Part shown: positions 17,144 to 50,633 of the stretch, one piece after another
Numbering within the stretch: the first letter of the stretch is position 1
Layout: each line of letters opens with the position of its first letter
Assembly: GCA_023150875.1 (NCBI GenBank)
Contig: JAKLKC010000043.1
Coordinates: 1-58,990, forward strand
From: Myxococcota bacterium
GTDB lineage: Bacteria; Myxococcota_A; UBA796; UBA9615; JAKLKC01
Reading direction: 5' to 3'
Length of the DNA: 58,990 nt
Position numbers and translations under genes: made by a program
Notes under the pieces: model-generated
Seen by the model: only the letters and a program-made list of their open reading frames with translations
Database searches by the model: none
What the model was told of the DNA's origin: nothing

Positions 17144-18527
17144 GGCCGGAAGCGTGAATCGACGGGCGGACGCTGTCAACGCGGGCGGATTCGCCTCCCC
17201 CGGGGGCGCGCTCGGCCGGGTCCTCGCCCTGGCGGCGACCGTCACCCTGGCCGTGTCGGCGGTGGTCGCCGGAGCGCCCCCCGTCCGGGCGGGGACCATC
17301 GCGTTCCAGGGCTCCCTCGCCGACCTGGTGGACGGCGTCAAGGACGCGGTGGTGAACGTCCGCACCCGGCGCGCGCCCCAGCGGCCGGACTTCGCCGATC
17401 CCTTCGCCTGGTTCTTCGGGGGAGATCCCCGCAGCAGGGCCGACCGGACCAGCCTGGGCTCGGGCTTCATCGTGGACGATGACGGCCACATCCTCACCAA
17501 CCACCACGTCGTCGCGGGGGCGGACGAGATCGCCGTGCTCTTCGCCGACGGCCACGAGGCCCGGGCGACCCTGGTGGGGGCCGACGAGGCGACGGACATC
17601 GCCGTGCTCCGGATCGACCCCTTCCCGGGCATGAAGGCGGTCCGCCTCGGGGACTCGGACGCGCTGAGGGTGGGGGATCCCGTCGCCGCCATCGGCAACC
17701 CCTTCGGTTACGGCCACACCGTCACCGCGGGGATCGTGTCGGCCAAGGGGAGGGTGCTGGGCTTCGGCCCCTACGACGCCTTCATCCAGACCGACGCCTC
17801 CATCAACCCGGGGAACTCCGGCGGGCCCCTGTTCGACCTGAAAGGCCGCGTGGTGGGCATCAACACGGCGGTGAGCTCCCGGGGGCAGGGCCTGGGGTTC
17901 GCCGTCCCCGCCGCCACCGCCCTCCAGGTCTTCCCGCAGCTCGTGGCCCGGGGAACGGTGACGAGGGGCTGGGCGGGGTGGAGGGTCGCCGACCACGACG
18001 GCACGCCGGTCCTGGAGGCGGTGTGGAGGGACGGCCCCGCCTTCCGCGCCGGCCTGGTGGCGGGAGACCGGCTGCTGGCCGTCGGCGGGGCCGACGTCCG
18101 GGCGGCCGGGGACGTGCCGCGGGCCCTCGGGGCGACGCCCCCCGGGGCCGAGGTGGGAGTGAGGGTGGAGAGGGAGGGCCGCCCCCTGGACGCCTCCCTG
18201 GTGCTGGACGACCGGGACGCGTGGGCGGAGCGGGCGGCGGGGCCGGCGGTGGCGGTGCCGGCCCTCGGCATCACCGTCCGGGCCCTGCCCCCAGACCGGG
18301 CCGAGCGGGGAGCCCGCGGCCTGGAGGTCTTCGCCGTCGCCTCGGACGCCCCCGCCCGGGGGTGGTTCGAGGAGGGGGACGTCCTCCTGGCCCTGGGCGG
18401 CGTCCCCCTGGAGCGCCCCGACGACCTGCTCCGCGTCACCCGGGGGCTGGGGCGGGGAGATCCCCTGGCCATCGACCTGGTCCGGGGGGGGCGCCGGGTG
18501 CGGGCCCGGGTGGTCCTTCCCCGCTAG
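17142..18527 (+). CDS. HtrA/DegP-type periplasmic serine protease with PDZ domains
   Basis: 461 residues from the ATG at 17142; a GTG at 17154 is an alternative. Signal peptide or anchor: 'RVLALAATVTLAVSAVVAG', cleavage likely near VRA. The trypsin-like domain has His122 (NHHVV), Asp152 (EATDIAVL) and Ser226 (NPGNSGGPL), a full catalytic triad. At least one PDZ domain ('GPAFRAGLVAGDRLLAV') is followed by a second degenerate one ('DAPARGWFEEGDVLLAL'). Role: envelope protein quality control. Its TAG overlaps the stop of the convergent TPR gene in CTAG. Confidence 0.92.
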   Translation: MAGSVNRRADAVNAGGFASPGGALGRVLALAATVTLAVSAVVAGAPPVRAGTIAFQGSLADLVDGVKDAVVNVRTRRAPQRPDFADPFAWFFGGDPRSRADRTSLGSGFIVDDDGHILTNHHVVAGADEIAVLFADGHEARATLVGADEATDIAVLRIDPFPGMKAVRLGDSDALRVGDPVAAIGNPFGYGHTVTAGIVSAKGRVLGFGPYDAFIQTDASINPGNSGGPLFDLKGRVVGINTAVSSRGQGLGFAVPAATALQVFPQLVARGTVTRGWAGWRVADHDGTPVLEAVWRDGPAFRAGLVAGDRLLAVGGADVRAAGDVPRALGATPPGAEVGVRVEREGRPLDASLVLDDRDAWAERAAGPAVAVPALGITVRALPPDRAERGARGLEVFAVASDAPARGWFEEGDVLLALGGVPLERPDDLLRVTRGLGRGDPLAIDLVRGGRRVRARVVLPR

Positions 18528-44817: not shown

Positions 44818-46302
44818 GTGCTGATTCCCAGGTGGTTTGCCCCGTTCGCCATCGCCCTCGCGGCGGCGTGTTCCACGGGCTCGGACGACAAGGCCGTCCA
44901 GCCCGCCGCCCTGTTCGACGCCGCGGCGGCTGTTCCCCAGGGCCAGCCCATCGAGGCGGTCCTCACCGACGCCCCCCACGTGCCCCCCCCCATCGACCGG
45001 AAGACGCCGGCGAAGGTGGTGGTGAAGCTCGAGGTCATCGAGAAGGTCATGGAGATCTCCGAGGGCGTCGAGTACACTTTCTGGACCTACGGCGGCGGGG
45101 TCCCGGGCAAGTTCATCCGGGTGCGGCAGGGGGACACGGTGGAGTTCCACCTGCAGAACCGCGCCGACAGCAAGATGCCCCACAACATCGACCTGCACGC
45201 GGTGACGGGCCCCGGCGGCGGCGCGACCAGCTCGTTCACGGCGCCGGGCCACGAGTCGCAGTTCACGTTCAAGGCGCTGAACGCGGGCCTCTACGTGTAT
45301 CACTGCGCCACGGCGCCGGTGGGCATGCACGTCGCCAACGGGATGTACGGCCTGATCCTCGTCGAGCCCCCCGAGGGCCTGCCCAAGGTGGACCGCGAGT
45401 TCTACGTGATGCAGGGCGACTTCTACACGGTGGGCAAGTACCGCGAGAAGGGCCTCCAGCCCTTCGACATGCAGAAGGCCATCGAGGAGAACGCGACCTA
45501 CGTGGTGTTCAACGGCGCCGAGGGCGCGCTGGTGGGCGACAAGGCCATCACCGCCAAGAAGGGCGAGAGGATCCGGGTGTACATGGGCAACGGCGGCCCG
45601 AACCTGGTGAGCAGCTTCCACGTCATCGGCGAGATCTTCGACCGCGTCTACACCGAGGGGGGCACCCGCTTCCAGGAGAACGTCCAGACGACGCTGGTCC
45701 CCGCGGGGGGCTCCGCCATCGTGGAGTTCGTCGCCGAGGTGCCCGGCACGATGATCCTGGTGGACCACTCGATCTTCCGCGCCTTCAACAAGGGCGCCCT
45801 GGGGATGCTCAAGATCGAGGGGGACGACAGCAAGGACCTGTACTCGGGCAAGGAGGTGGACTCGGTCTACATCTCGGACAAGGCCCTCTCCTCGGCGCCC
45901 ATCTCGGCGGCGGCGGCGGGGCTGAAGAGCGGCAAGCTCTCCAAGGCGGAGCAGGTCGAGGCCGGGAAGGTCCTGTACGCCGGCAACTGCGCCACCTGCC
46001 ACCAGGCCGACGGCAAGGGCCTCCCGGGGATCTTCCCGCCCCTGGCCGGATCGGACTACCTCATGGCGGACAAGCGCCGCTCCATCGAGATCGCCCTCAA
46101 CGGGCTCTCGGGCAAGGTGGTGGTGAACGGCAAGGACTACAACTCGGTCATGCCGCCCATGAGCCAGCTCAACGACGACGAGGTGGCGAACATCCTGTCC
46201 TACGTCCGCGACTCCTGGGGCAACCGCGGGGACGCGGTGTCCCCTGCCGAGGTCGCCGCCGCCCGCGCCTCCACGCCCCGCCCGCCGGGAGCCGCGGAGT
46301 GA
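44818..46302 (+). CDS. nirK: copper nitrite reductase fused to C-terminal cytochrome c
   Basis: 494 residues. It reduces nitrite to nitric oxide. Lipoprotein-type signal (AAC near residue 18). The two cupredoxin domains keep the copper ligands: '[12 protein letters not shown]' (type-1 His, catalytic Asp, type-2 His), '[20 protein letters not shown]' (type-2 His, type-1 Cys/His/Met), '[10 protein letters not shown]' and '[12 protein letters not shown]' (type-2 His). After ~370 a class I cytochrome c domain has C391-x2-C394-H395 and an 'MPPMSQL' axial Met. The fused heme domain can deliver electrons directly. GTG start with a strong GAGGAGG. Coupled by GTGA to nirV. Confidence 0.95.
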
Positions 46303-47102
46303 GGTCCGGCCGGGCCGCCGCCCTGCTCGCGGCGGGGCTGCTGCTGGCCATCGTCCCGTCCGTCGCGTCGACCGGCGCGGCGGCGGGAGGTCCGGCGATG
46401 GCCCGGGTGGAGGGGGGGCGGCTGCCCCTCTTCTACCCGCCCCCCGGGGGAGCGGCCGAGGTGGCGGTCCCCCCCTTCCTGCTGGACGTGCGCCCCGTGA
46501 CCCAAGGGGAGTTCCTGGCCTTCGTGACCCGCCGCCCCGAGTGGCGCCGCGGTCGGGTTCCGGCCCTGTTCGCCGACCGCAACTACCTCGGCCGCTGGGC
46601 CGGTCCGACGGACCTGGGGGCGGGGACGCGGGCGACCCAGCCCGTCACCCAGGTCAGTTGGTTCGCCGCCCGGGCGTACTGCGAGGAGCGGGGCGGCCGC
46701 CTGCCCACCGAGGCGGAGTGGGAGTACGCTGCCCGGGCCAACGAGGTCCGCCCCGACGCCGGGGCCGATCCGGAGCGGGTCCGGATGCTCCTGGAGTGGT
46801 ACTCCCGCCCCACCCCCAAGGACCTCCCGGACGTCGGCTCCGGTCGCCCGGACGTCCACGGGGTCCACGACCTGCACGGCCTGGTGTGGGAGTGGGTCCT
46901 GGACTTCAACAGCACCATGGCCGCGGGGGACTCCCGGGAGGCGGGGGACGCGGAGCGGACGCGGTTCTGCGGGGCGGGGGCGCTGACCGCCGCCGACGCC
47001 CGGGACTACGCCAGCTTCATGCGCTTCGCCTTCCGCGCCTCCCTGGTGGCGGCGGCGACCACGCCCAACCTGGGGTTCCGGTGTGCGGCCGACGCGGAGT
47101 GA
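46299..47102 (+). CDS. nirV: NirV-like FGE-sulfatase (SUMF1) domain protein
   Basis: 267 residues. Signal peptide '[18 protein letters not shown]', then an FGE/SUMF1-type domain: '[18 protein letters not shown]', '[20 protein letters not shown]', '[16 protein letters not shown]', '[19 protein letters not shown]', '[11 protein letters not shown]'. NirV is the classical partner encoded behind nirK; its role in nitrite reductase maturation is not settled. The GTG overlaps the nirK stop, and the SCO-like gene begins 7 bp after it. Confidence 0.88.
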
Positions 47103-47109
47103 GACTCGG

Positions 47110-47955
47110 ATGAAGCTCGCCCCCTGCCTCCTCGTGCCGTCCCTGGCCCTAGTACGTCGTTCCAGAGCGAGTTCCCCAGTTTCTGAGTCCGCCTTCCAGT
47201 TCATCGGCGTCGCGGTCCCGCGAACGGGAGGCCCCGTAGGGCGGGGGCTGGTCCCCCGCCGAAGCCCCGCGGCGGGGGACAAGCCCCCGCCCTACGTTCC
47301 GGATCGGGTGGGCCTGGGAACGGAGAAACTGGGGAGGAACCTTCGGAACGTGGTACTAGCCCTCGCCCTCGGGGGCTGCTCCCTGAGCTCCGATCCGCCG
47401 CTGGCCCCGGACCCCGGCGCCCCCACCGCCGGCGACGCCGCCCCGGACGCCGCCCCGGACCTGGGCGCCTCCATCTACCAGCTCGCCGCCCCGCTGACGG
47501 ACCAGTCGGGCGCCGAGGTGGGCCTGGACGCCTTCCGAGGCCACCCGGTGCTGATCAGCATGTTCTACGCCTCGTGCCCCGCGGCGTGCCCCATGCTGAT
47601 CCGCGACATCCAGTCCATCGAGGCGGCCGTCCCCCCCGAGGCGCGGGCGGACCTGAGGGTGCTGCTGATCTCCCTGGACCCGGATCGGGACACCCCCCCG
47701 GCCCTCGCCGCCCTGGCGGAGCGCCACCGCGTGGACCCCACCCGCTGGAAGGTGACCCGCACCCCCCAGGACCGGGTCCGGGAGATCGCCGCCGTCTTGG
47801 GGATCCAGTACCGCTTCCTGCCCGACGGCGAGCTGAACCACTCCTCCGTGATCACCCTCCTGGACCCCCAAGGGATCCCCCTCCACCGCGCCGAGGGCCT
47901 CGGCCGCCCCCAGGACGACATGGTGGCCCGGATCGCGGCGCTCCCCCGGCGCTGA
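47110..47955 (+). CDS. SCO1/SenC-type copper chaperone lipoprotein, signal peptide interrupted by element
   Basis: 281 residues as an open frame from the ATG at 47110. The mature domain has the thioredoxin fold with the copper-binding CxxxC ('YASCPAACPML') and the distal His ('LNHSSVITLLDP'), as in SCO proteins that load CuA or other copper sites; here it probably serves nirK. The N-terminus starts 'MKLAPCLLVPSLAL' and the lipobox 'LALALGGC' lies 69 residues further on. The stretch between is encoded by a 203-bp palindromic element plus a CTAG duplication; removing them rejoins a normal lipoprotein signal. A GTG at 47308 inside the element would give a short alternative signal peptide ending at the same Cys. 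Confidence 0.88.
   Translation: MKLAPCLLVPSLALVRRSRASSPVSESAFQFIGVAVPRTGGPVGRGLVPRRSPAAGDKPPPYVPDRVGLGTEKLGRNLRNVVLALALGGCSLSSDPPLAPDPGAPTAGDAAPDAAPDLGASIYQLAAPLTDQSGAEVGLDAFRGHPVLISMFYASCPAACPMLIRDIQSIEAAVPPEARADLRVLLISLDPDRDTPPALAALAERHRVDPTRWKVTRTPQDRVREIAAVLGIQYRFLPDGELNHSSVITLLDPQGIPLHRAEGLGRPQDDMVARIAALPRR
47149..47359. mobile_element. MITE-like palindromic element with CTAG target duplication inside SCO gene
   Basis: Element 47153-47355 (203 bp), flanked by CTAG at 47149-47152 and 47356-47359. The inverted ends read TACGTCGTTCC on the left and TACCACGTTCC from the right, and further in both arms carry CCCCAGTTTCT. The centre is a very strong hairpin (47236-47295): GTAGGGCGGGGGCT pairs with AGCCCCCGCCCTAC and TCCCCCGCC with GGCGGGGGA. 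203 plus 4 bp is 207, so the host frame is kept. There is no transposase inside. Confidence 0.85.
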
Positions 47956-47961
47956 CCCCTC

Positions 47962-49155
47962 CTACTCCCCCCCCGCCGTCGCCCGCCTGTCCCCCAGGTC
48001 CCCGAGGCGCCCCAGGCCCATCAGGAGGGCGAGGACGAAGCAGACCAGGGCGACCTCCGAGAGGAGCATGAAGCCCACGGCGTAGGCGCCGGTGGCGTCG
48101 CGGACGAAGCCCATCACCAGGGGGGGGAAGAAGCCGCCCAGGGCCCCGGCGGTGGACACCAGGCCGCCGGCGGCGCCGGTGTCGCGGGGGAAGAGCTCGG
48201 GCACCAGCTTGAAGACCGCGCCGTTGCCCAGCCCCAGCAGGAAGGCGGTCCCCAGGAACGCCGCCGTCGCCACCTCGATCCCCGGCCCGAAGGCCAGGAC
48301 CACCGCCAGCGCCGCCACCCCCGGGAAGGTCCGGTCCAGGGTCCAGATCCCCCCGCGGCGGTCGGCGAGAAGCCCCCCCAGGGGGCGCGCCAGGGTCGCC
48401 AGCAGGACGAAGCCCCCCGCCCGGGCCCCCGCGTCCTGGCGGTCCAGCCCGAACTCCAGCACCAGGTAGGTGGGCAGGTAGGCCCCCAGCGCCACGAAGC
48501 CGCCGAAGGTGACGAAGTAGAAGAGGGACAGCAGCCACGCCGCGGGGCGCCGGGCGAGGGACCGCGCCGGGATCCCTCGGGCCCGGGGCGCCGGGGCGTC
48601 CCGCTCCACGGCCCAGAAGAGGAGCGCCGCCGCCGCCAGGAGGGGGATCAGGGCCAGGAAGGGGGCCCGCCACCCCCACCGGGCGGCCACGGCCGGCACC
48701 ACCAGGGCGGCGATCCCCGTGCCGGCGTTGCCCATCCCGTAGATCCCCAGGGCGATCCCCTGCCGGCGCCGGGAGGTCCACCGGGACACGAAGGGCACCC
48801 CCACCGCGAAGGACGCCCCCGCCAGGCCCAGGAGCGCCGACGCCGCCAGCAGGCCGGCGAACGATCCCGTGAGGGGGACCACGCCCACCGGCACCACCAG
48901 GGCCAGCAGCAGCCCCGCGAACACCCGCCTCCCCCCGAAGCGGTCCGCGAGCATCCCCAGCGGGATCCGCCCCAGCGCCCCCAGCAGGACCGGCGCCGCC
49001 ACCAGCGTCCCCGCCTGGGTCTGGCTCAGCCCGTACTCCTCGGCGAAGAGGGGGGCGAGGGGGGCGATGGAGCCCCACGCGACGAAGCACAGCAGCAGGG
49101 CCAGCGTCGCCCCCACCAGGGCCCGCCCGGCCCCCGGGTCAGGCGGCGGGGCCAC
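47962..49155 (-). CDS. narK: nitrate/nitrite transporter, NarK/NasA type MFS
   Basis: 397 residues, 12 hydrophobic helices, major facilitator superfamily. The nitrate-signature Gly-rich helices are present: 'GLAGASFAVGVPFVSRW' and 'GLGNGAVFKLVPELFP', together with 'GIYGMGNAGTGIAALVVP'. The MFS loop motif is 'LGMLADRFGGRRV'. Likely nitrate uptake or nitrate/nitrite exchange for the adjacent molybdoenzyme. The start overlaps the preceding small membrane-protein gene by 17 bp. Its stop is 6 bp from the SCO stop. Confidence 0.9.
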   Translation of the reverse strand: MAPPPDPGAGRALVGATLALLLCFVAWGSIAPLAPLFAEEYGLSQTQAGTLVAAPVLLGALGRIPLGMLADRFGGRRVFAGLLLALVVPVGVVPLTGSFAGLLAASALLGLAGASFAVGVPFVSRWTSRRRQGIALGIYGMGNAGTGIAALVVPAVAARWGWRAPFLALIPLLAAAALLFWAVERDAPAPRARGIPARSLARRPAAWLLSLFYFVTFGGFVALGAYLPTYLVLEFGLDRQDAGARAGGFVLLATLARPLGGLLADRRGGIWTLDRTFPGVAALAVVLAFGPGIEVATAAFLGTAFLLGLGNGAVFKLVPELFPRDTGAAGGLVSTAGALGGFFPPLVMGFVRDATGAYAVGFMLLSEVALVCFVLALLMGLGRLGDLGDRRATAGGE

Positions 49156-49417
49156 CCGAGCCTCCCCCGCTCGCCGGCGGGCGGCGGACCCGGGGGCGGC
49201 GCCCCAGGGCCCACAGGATCAGCAGCCCCCCGCCGAACACCCCCGCCGACGCCGCGGCGAGTCCCCACACCGCTTCGCCCTGCCCCCCCAGGTACAGGTC
49301 CAGGGCGACGGTGAGGATCCAGAGTTGGAGGCCCAGCATGAGGGCGCCGATGGTCAGGCCCGCCGAGAGCACCGCGTCCTGGCCCGGCGGGGGCGGGCGG
49401 ACGTCCCCGTCCTTCAC
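49139..49417 (-). CDS. small membrane protein of the nitrate reductase operon
   Basis: 92 residues with two hydrophobic helices ('SAGLTIGALMLGLQLWILTV' and 'GLAAASAGVFGGGLLILWAL') and a basic, Pro/Gly-rich tail. The GTG start overlaps the stop of the Rieske gene (GTGA) and the end overlaps the narK start, so it is tightly embedded in the operon. It may be a membrane anchor or assembly factor; function unknown. Confidence 0.75.
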   Translation of the reverse strand: MKDGDVRPPPPGQDAVLSAGLTIGALMLGLQLWILTVALDLYLGGQGEAVWGLAAASAGVFGGGLLILWALGRRPRVRRPPASGGGSGGPAA

Positions 49418-49965
49418 GGCGTCATCCCGATGGCGAAGATCGTGTCGGCCTCGCGCCGCAGCAGGATCCGCGGAAGCCGCCGCCGGGGCGGGCCCGCCAC
49501 CGGATCCCCCGTCAGCGGGTTGAACACCCCCTCGTGGCAGGGGCAGTAGAGGCGGTCCCGCTCGGGTTGGAACAGCACCGAGCACGACAGGTGGGTACAC
49601 CGCTGGCTGTAAGCGACGAAGCGCCCGCCGGGGAGGTGCAGCAGCACCGCCTCGTCCTCGGGGCCGGGGTAGCCGAAGTAGAGCGCCCCCCCCTCGGGCA
49701 CGTCGGAGGCCCGGGCCACCGCCCGCACCGCCGCGCTCCCCGGGGGCCGCAGCCGTCCGAGCGCCGCGATGGCGAGCGTCCCGGCGAACAGCGCCCCCGA
49801 GGCGTACACCGCCCACTCCAGGAGCCGCCGCCGGGACGCCAGGTCGTCGGCGTCCCAGCGGTAGGGGAACTCCGCGCCCCAGCGGGGCTCCGGGACCGCC
49901 AGCGCCTCGTCCCCGGCGCCGCCCCCGTCGTTGGCCTTCCCGTCCGGATCGCTCACAGGACCCAT
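49414..49965 (-). CDS. Rieske [2Fe-2S] protein
   Basis: 183 residues from the ATG at 49965; a GTG at 49956 in GTGA overlap is an alternative. One N-terminal membrane helix ('LLEWAVYASGALFAGTLAIA') anchors a Rieske domain. Cluster ligands are visible: 'CTHLSC' (Cys, His) and 'CPCHEG' (Cys, His), with the extra Cys pair for the disulfide, and 'GVFNPLTGDPVAGPPRR' after it. It would pass electrons from quinol to the neighbouring Fe-S and molybdenum subunits. Confidence 0.88.
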   Translation of the reverse strand: MGPVSDPDGKANDGGGAGDEALAVPEPRWGAEFPYRWDADDLASRRRLLEWAVYASGALFAGTLAIAALGRLRPPGSAAVRAVARASDVPEGGALYFGYPGPEDEAVLLHLPGGRFVAYSQRCTHLSCSVLFQPERDRLYCPCHEGVFNPLTGDPVAGPPRRRLPRILLRREADTIFAIGMTP

Positions 49966-50570
49966 GCCTCCTCCTCCGGGGCCGCGCCCACCTCCCGCCG
50001 CGCCTCCCCCAGCAGGGAGGCGACGTCCAGGCTGGGTGCCTCCTCCGGCAGGACGTGGAACACGCGGGTGACCACCCGCTGGGTGCCGAACCACGTCGTC
50101 CGCACCGCCCGCCCCTGGCGGTGGGCGACGAACTCCTCGTAGTCCCCGTACCACAGCGCCTGGGTCGGGCACGCCTGGGCGCACCACGGTTGGAGCCCCT
50201 GGGAGGTCCGGTCGTAGCACAGGTTGCACTTCTTCATCAGCCGCGCCGACAGGTCCATCTTGGGCACCCCGAAGGGGCAGGCGTACACGCAGTTCCGGCA
50301 GGCGATACACCGGGAGGGGTCCGCCTGCTGCACCACCCCGTCCGGGGTGATGGGGATCGCCAGCGCGGGACACACCTGGGCGCAGGGGGCCACGGGATCG
50401 GCGCAGTGCATACAGACCGTCGGCTGGGTGGCGACGCTGCTCCCCCGGTCCACGAAGTCCACCATGACCATGCTCTCCCCCTTGTGGGAGTCGCACTCGC
50501 GGCAGGCGGCCTCGCACGCGCGACAGCCGATGCATCGGGACGGGTCCACGAACAGGGTCTTGGAGATCAC
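49953..50570 (-). CDS. four-cluster 4Fe-4S ferredoxin subunit (NarH/DmsB-like)
   Basis: 205 residues. Cys motifs for four [4Fe-4S] clusters: 'CIGCRACEAACREC', 'CMHCADPVAPCAQVCP', 'CIACRNCVYACPFG' and 'CNLCYDRTSQGLQPWCAQAC'. It is the electron-transfer subunit of a molybdopterin oxidoreductase complex. The GTG at 50570 (GGAG 5 nt upstream) fits because the first cluster motif then begins ~10 residues in; a TTG at 50621 would only add an odd leader. It is separated from the catalytic subunit by a repeat-rich 390-bp gap, unusual for such operons. Confidence 0.88.
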   Translation of the reverse strand: MISKTLFVDPSRCIGCRACEAACRECDSHKGESMVMVDFVDRGSSVATQPTVCMHCADPVAPCAQVCPALAIPITPDGVVQQADPSRCIACRNCVYACPFGVPKMDLSARLMKKCNLCYDRTSQGLQPWCAQACPTQALWYGDYEEFVAHRQGRAVRTTWFGTQRVVTRVFHVLPEEAPSLDVASLLGEARREVGAAPEEEAWVL

Positions 50571-50633
50571 CGTCGCTCCATCTGCCGGGGCGGTCCCGGC
50601 GCCTCTTCCGCTCCTATTCAACTATCCCTTAAT

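Follow-up and report, generated by a model that had tools for sequence, protein, structure and literature searches.

The window, that is, the whole 58,990-nucleotide stretch of DNA that was analysed, carries at 44818-50621 a denitrification-type gene cluster. The cluster encodes NirK fused to cytochrome c, an FGE-like protein, an SCO protein, a putative NarK-like MFS transporter, and Fe-S and Rieske-like proteins, the latter named from sequence only. Clusters of nirK with an FGE-like (NirV-like) protein and SCO are of a known kind. Relatives and several named MAGs conserve the order NirK (NCBIfam TIGR02376), FGE-like, SCO that is seen at the locus studied here; the peculiarity of this genome is an insertion in the SCO gene. 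The features of the gene and of the insertion are as follows.

47096..47099, forward strand: GGAG ribosome-binding site for the native ATG 47110 (duplex energy -6.7, at least as strong as at 64% of ATG starts in the genome)
47110..47955, forward strand: SCO1/SenC-family copper chaperone gene, open frame of 281 codons including a 69-codon insertion (Pfam SCO1-SenC PF02630, E=1.3e-18)
47110..47148, forward strand: 5' half of the split lipoprotein signal peptide (MKLAPCLLVPSLA), from the joined translation and the PROSITE rule; orthologues have a comparable short signal
47149..47152, no strand: CTAG, left target copy (CTAG flanks both sides in 23/23 complete copies)
47149..47184, forward strand: left terminal inverted repeat, CTAG included (inverted-repeat search)
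47153..47355, forward strand: MITE-like element, 203 bp (copies 97-99% identical elsewhere in the genome)
47235..47296, no strand: central palindrome of two inverted GTAG-type REP hairpins, GTAG outward, a head-to-head dimer (repeat search, 96%; identical hairpin arrayed beside a RAYT gene, G000 C139)
47308..47310, forward strand: GTG, the start put forward in the preliminary description (ribosome-site energy -3.3; product MGLGTEKLGRNLRNVVLALALGGC)
47324..47359, reverse strand: right terminal inverted repeat, CTAG included (inverted-repeat search)
47350..47352, forward strand: second in-frame GTG within the element, after GGGGAGG at 47331-47337
47356..47359, no strand: CTAG, right target copy (the same both-sided rule, 23/23 complete copies)
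47377..47379, forward strand: lipobox cysteine codon (LGGC), from the translation

The frame is open through the element, with a product of 290 aa if read from GTG 47083 or 281 aa if read from ATG 47110, and the SCO domain downstream is intact, with the CxxxC motif (CPAAC) and the histidine (NHSS) present in the translation. Joining the flanks on a single CTAG yields MKLAPCLLVPSLALALALGGCSLSS, which passes the PROSITE lipoprotein pattern PS51257, a rule that asks for a Lys or Arg among the first seven residues and a lipobox Cys at 15-35; here the Cys is residue 21. The corresponding empty-site reconstruction, MKLAPCLLVPSLALALALGGC, is consistent with the relatives, whose SCO genes start close behind FGE and encode a short signal (a lipoprotein signal in many) without an insert. 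The nearest relatives compared are members of the same order, and within the class the closest SCO matches found reach only about 43-59% identity; among relatives with the NirK-FGE-SCO cluster, only this genome has the insertion. Because the relatives have short signals and the joined flanks restore one, the 69 residues are an insertion. The preliminary description had read the joined flanks as a lipoprotein signal and had calculated that 203 + 4 bp preserves the frame. Both points hold, with a 21-residue signal and a frame open over 69 added codons, and the comparison with orthologous SCO genes that it suggested also bears it out, as these lack the 69-residue stretch.

Read directly, 47149-47359 consists of CTAG, 203 bp and CTAG. 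The outer arms of the element form an imperfect inverted repeat (36 nt, 75% complementary), and its centre forms a 27-bp stem that is 96% complementary; the predicted RNA fold of the element strand reaches -135 kcal/mol, with z = -7.3 relative to shuffled sequence. The earlier picture of a 203-bp element with inverted ends and a strong central hairpin is thus confirmed. In the family as a whole, the outer arms start with CTAGTAC[GC][TA]CGTTCC, and the centre is GTAGGGCGGGGGCTTGTCCCCCGCC followed by its own inverted copy, with one base altered in the first REP hairpin of the SCO-locus copy. The element has no transposase gene of its own, an Rfam search gave no match near the gathering score, and no intrinsic terminator pattern was found in the region. 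On the preliminary reading the element was bracketed by CTAG duplications. CTAG does stand on both sides, which fits target duplication, but because CTAG is itself palindromic, a 4-bp CTAG duplication looks the same as a TA duplication within a fixed CTAG.

The element belongs to a family. Within its own genome (6.9 Mb, 180 contigs), 25 near-full-length copies were detected, of which 23 have both ends and are 88-100% identical; the length including both CTAGs is exactly 211 bp in 22 of these 23. The end-pattern search of the same genome returned 82 ends, which corresponds to about 40 copies. Many of these ends lie at contig ends and share a stretch of about 77 bp, the usual effect of a repeat on short-read assembly. 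In the main subfamily, 18 copies show 0 to 4 differences from its consensus, four of them being identical to it, and this low divergence indicates a recent burst; a second subfamily departs from the main one in the left half only. The SCO copy differs from the family consensus at two bases, and it is judged recent because just one of the changes, a synonymous one, is private. The further copies in the genome for which the preliminary description had proposed to look are plentiful (23 complete and many at contig ends), and the recurrence of a 211-bp unit in complete copies always having CTAG on both sides rules out chance.

Two further arrangements were seen in this genome. At G000 C92:221726-222005 (L113), a complete copy runs straight into a degenerate second left end, the two having one CTAG in common, which looks like one element inserted at another's end. 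At G000 C125:114722-114751 (L105:3723-3752) there is a lone, divergent end of this type whose inner sequence differs, perhaps a remnant of an older element or of a lost parent.

Outside this genome, the end pattern was not found in the remaining 70 genomes of the class, and no match to the family was found in a collection of 84,980 named species (from which the own genome may have been left out), in viral contigs or in plasmids. A wider phylum sample of 379 genomes yielded single matches to a short end pattern in three further genomes, and the two matches that were read looked incidental. The family appears to be private to the lineage and, with no match in the collections searched, seemingly undescribed.

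The target, CTAG, is very rare in this genome: it occurs 51 times in 459 kb, where base composition predicts 1077 occurrences (so that the count is about 20-fold too low) and a Markov estimate predicts 392. Among complete copies, 16 of 23 are inserted on the TAG stop codon of a flanking gene, compared with 15 of 50 native CTAGs (about 30%; Fisher p=0.002). The gene calls behind these counts come from a simple purpose-written codon-usage caller, and other gene-calling thresholds give p=0.005-0.02. The one-sided copies at contig ends behave similarly: in 12 the adjoining gene terminates at TAG, and in one a gene continues into the element. At L018 and L021, two convergent genes end at the same CTAG, and each retains its own TAG stop. 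Most copies thus leave genes intact because the flanking CTAG contains the stop of the gene. We dropped the suggestion that the element's own CTAG truncates genes, since abutting genes meet TAG in frame nearly always, unlike what random insertion would give. The excess over native sites can reflect selection against harmful insertions and is by itself no proof of an enzyme preference. Elsewhere in the window, the native CTAG at 18524 is apparently the stop codon of two convergent genes, like the sites at L018 and L021.

Only two of the 23 complete copies, the SCO copy among them, are situated within called genes, and one of the two has a stop. The copy at L016 breaks a gene outright, and joining its flanks across one CTAG restores that gene, as it restores SCO. 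The SCO copy is the only firm case of an in-frame open insertion. A possible second one, in a metalloprotease-like gene at L022 (G000 C28:2307-2519), is provisional, as homologues did not span the junction. Most coding CTAGs of this genome (9 of 12 phase calls) are in phase CTA-G, and the main subfamily is open in this phase in the orientation of the SCO copy. Since 207 is divisible by three and this prevailing phase is also the open phase of the main subfamily, the frame was kept. An argument from the open frame to selection was abandoned: by rough base-composition arithmetic, a given frame with this length and composition has about a one in four chance to be open, and the family has a fixed net length.

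The enzyme that moved the family is a separate matter. No autonomous partner with matching ends was found in this assembly in searches for the domains DDE_3, DDE_5 and DDE_Tnp_1. IS630 (DDE_3) and IS701 (DDE_5) were rejected as parents as no such domains were found, and DDE_Tnp_1 was rejected because its sole gene sits in an IS4-like element with unrelated ends. A partner missing from the genome is still compatible with MITE status. Because none with matching ends was found, we can only infer that a DDE transposase was the mover. The central REP dimer suggests another route, in which the 203-bp unit is a REP/BIME-type repeat spread by a RAYT (Y1, HUH) and the CTAGs are part of the cleavage signals. 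The genome does contain a RAYT gene, at G000 C139:12437-13180 (L149:3438-4181; NCBIfam NF047646, E=7e-29, which passes the cut-off), flanked by an array of GTAG hairpins identical to the centre of the element, and GTAG dimers nested in longer palindromes have already been described (PMC3733652). The likeness to GTAG-type REPs, namely a hairpin preceded by GTAG and shared with a RAYT locus, is confined to the central dimer. The REPs at C139 are without the outer arms, the mobile unit is bounded by outer inverted repeats and CTAG rather than by GTAG, and CTAG on both sides at L018 and L021, with convergent genes keeping their TAG stops, fits target duplication. Given these boundaries of the copies, we take the REP pair as nested in a unit moved by another enzyme and regard mobilisation by the RAYT as unlikely. 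Two direct copies of GGTGTCAGGCACCAACACATTTACATTTACG precede a second Y1 transposase gene, at G000 C114:122241-122564 (L183), and GGTGTCAGGCACCAACA recurs behind the stop of that gene; this is possibly another repeat-transposase pair.

Several starts are available for translation of the SCO gene. The preliminary description had suggested that the element may supply a new start, GTG 47308, and a charged n-region, and would then be domesticated as part of a signal peptide. On this reading, SCO would be a 215-aa precursor exported by a partly element-encoded lipoprotein signal. The GTG and the Lys/Arg codons behind it are indeed present, the product passes PS51257 (Cys at 24, Lys at 7), and the downstream SCO domain is undamaged. 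The ribosome site at this GTG, however, is poor: it is weaker than those of 72% of ATG starts (only 28% are as weak or weaker), with 45% of internal GTGs as weak or weaker, and the codon sits about 12 nt past the end of the very stable hairpin. The native ATG and its ribosome site are unharmed, and the insertion is too recent for visible selection. The other in-element start, GTG 47350, has a strong ribosome site (-10.4, at least as strong as at 92% of ATG starts), but the spacing is long, and its product, MVLALALGGC, has no charged n-region. By the same pattern test, the full read-through form from ATG 47110 does not conform to PS51257, as its lipobox Cys lies at residue 90. A new start supplied by the element is thus not supported, and we consider domestication very improbable. 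Loss of SCO export, or tolerated read-through, is at least as likely.

A far more serious candidate is inactivation, in which the split signal peptide no longer allows useful export of SCO and the gene is becoming a pseudogene. The hydrophobic core is split, with Arg-Arg-Ser-Arg directly behind its first half, and the added fold, being very stable, could block expression. At least one other copy, that at L016, breaks its gene, and a loss could be tolerable given two further SCO-like matches in the genome, at C95 and C107. On the other hand, the frame is open, the SCO domain is undamaged, and the second hydrophobic half, its basic flank and the lipobox are all intact. We rate inactivation as a substantial possibility, though somewhat short of even. 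It bears solely on what becomes of the protein, and there is overlap with the explanation that we prefer, which spans the element, its insertion and the read-through.

That explanation, which we hold to be probable, is the recent insertion of a non-autonomous, lineage-private, MITE-like element in the SCO signal peptide, read through from ATG 47110. The element would have moved in trans, most likely by the action of a DDE transposase cutting at CTAG and duplicating CTAG or the inner TA. With CTAG very rare and a large share of its occurrences being TAG stops, most insertions fall on stops, where duplication would regenerate the stop and the gene would survive. In the SCO gene the CTAG lay within signal-peptide codons in phase CTA-G, and the net insertion of 207 bp, open in this phase, added the 69 codons. 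Translation most probably still starts at the native ATG and reads through, which would give peptides from VRRSRASSPVSES. The second half of the split core (KLGRNLRN-VVLALALGG-C) may act as an internal lipoprotein signal, or export may be impaired. The original proposal that the SCO signal peptide contains an in-frame insertion of a mobile, non-coding element is accordingly upheld by the copies and by orthologues without the stretch. Its extension to domestication is not, given that the copy is recent with one private synonymous change, and that the frame follows from the fixed net length.

Events of this type are already on record for two groups of palindromic repeats that are read in frame within protein genes, often close to the N terminus, namely Rickettsia palindromic elements (RPE) and intragenic REPs (PMC10969869, PMC3733652), as well as for MITEs that target CTAG (PMC3189936). 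The likeness to RPEs is one of description only, a palindromic repeat in frame inside a protein gene; RPEs insert in frame frequently, whereas here most copies are on stop codons. MITEPsy1 of Pseudomonas syringae (100 nt, CTAG target, YTAA also used) is likewise short and non-coding, with terminal inverted repeats and CTAG duplicated at its sites (PMC3189936), but the present element is longer, has other ends and a REP dimer inside, and its CTAG is invariant. With GTAG-type REP dimers (BIMEs) it shares the central head-to-head dimer, identical to the REPs beside the RAYT gene of its own genome; unlike in BIMEs, that dimer lies within a larger unit, which has inverted ends of its own and is flanked by CTAG. 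REP ends that supply TAG stops to flanking genes have also been described (PMC3733652).

What is new here is a lineage-private MITE family with a nested REP dimer. The stop-codon distribution of this family is the more general result: an element that requires CTAG can do almost no harm in a genome where this site is rare and in many cases a stop, each insertion regenerating TAG. The SCO insertion is a natural experiment on the tolerance of signal peptides and, if the SCO protein is exported, would clearly exemplify the extension of a signal peptide by a mobile element.
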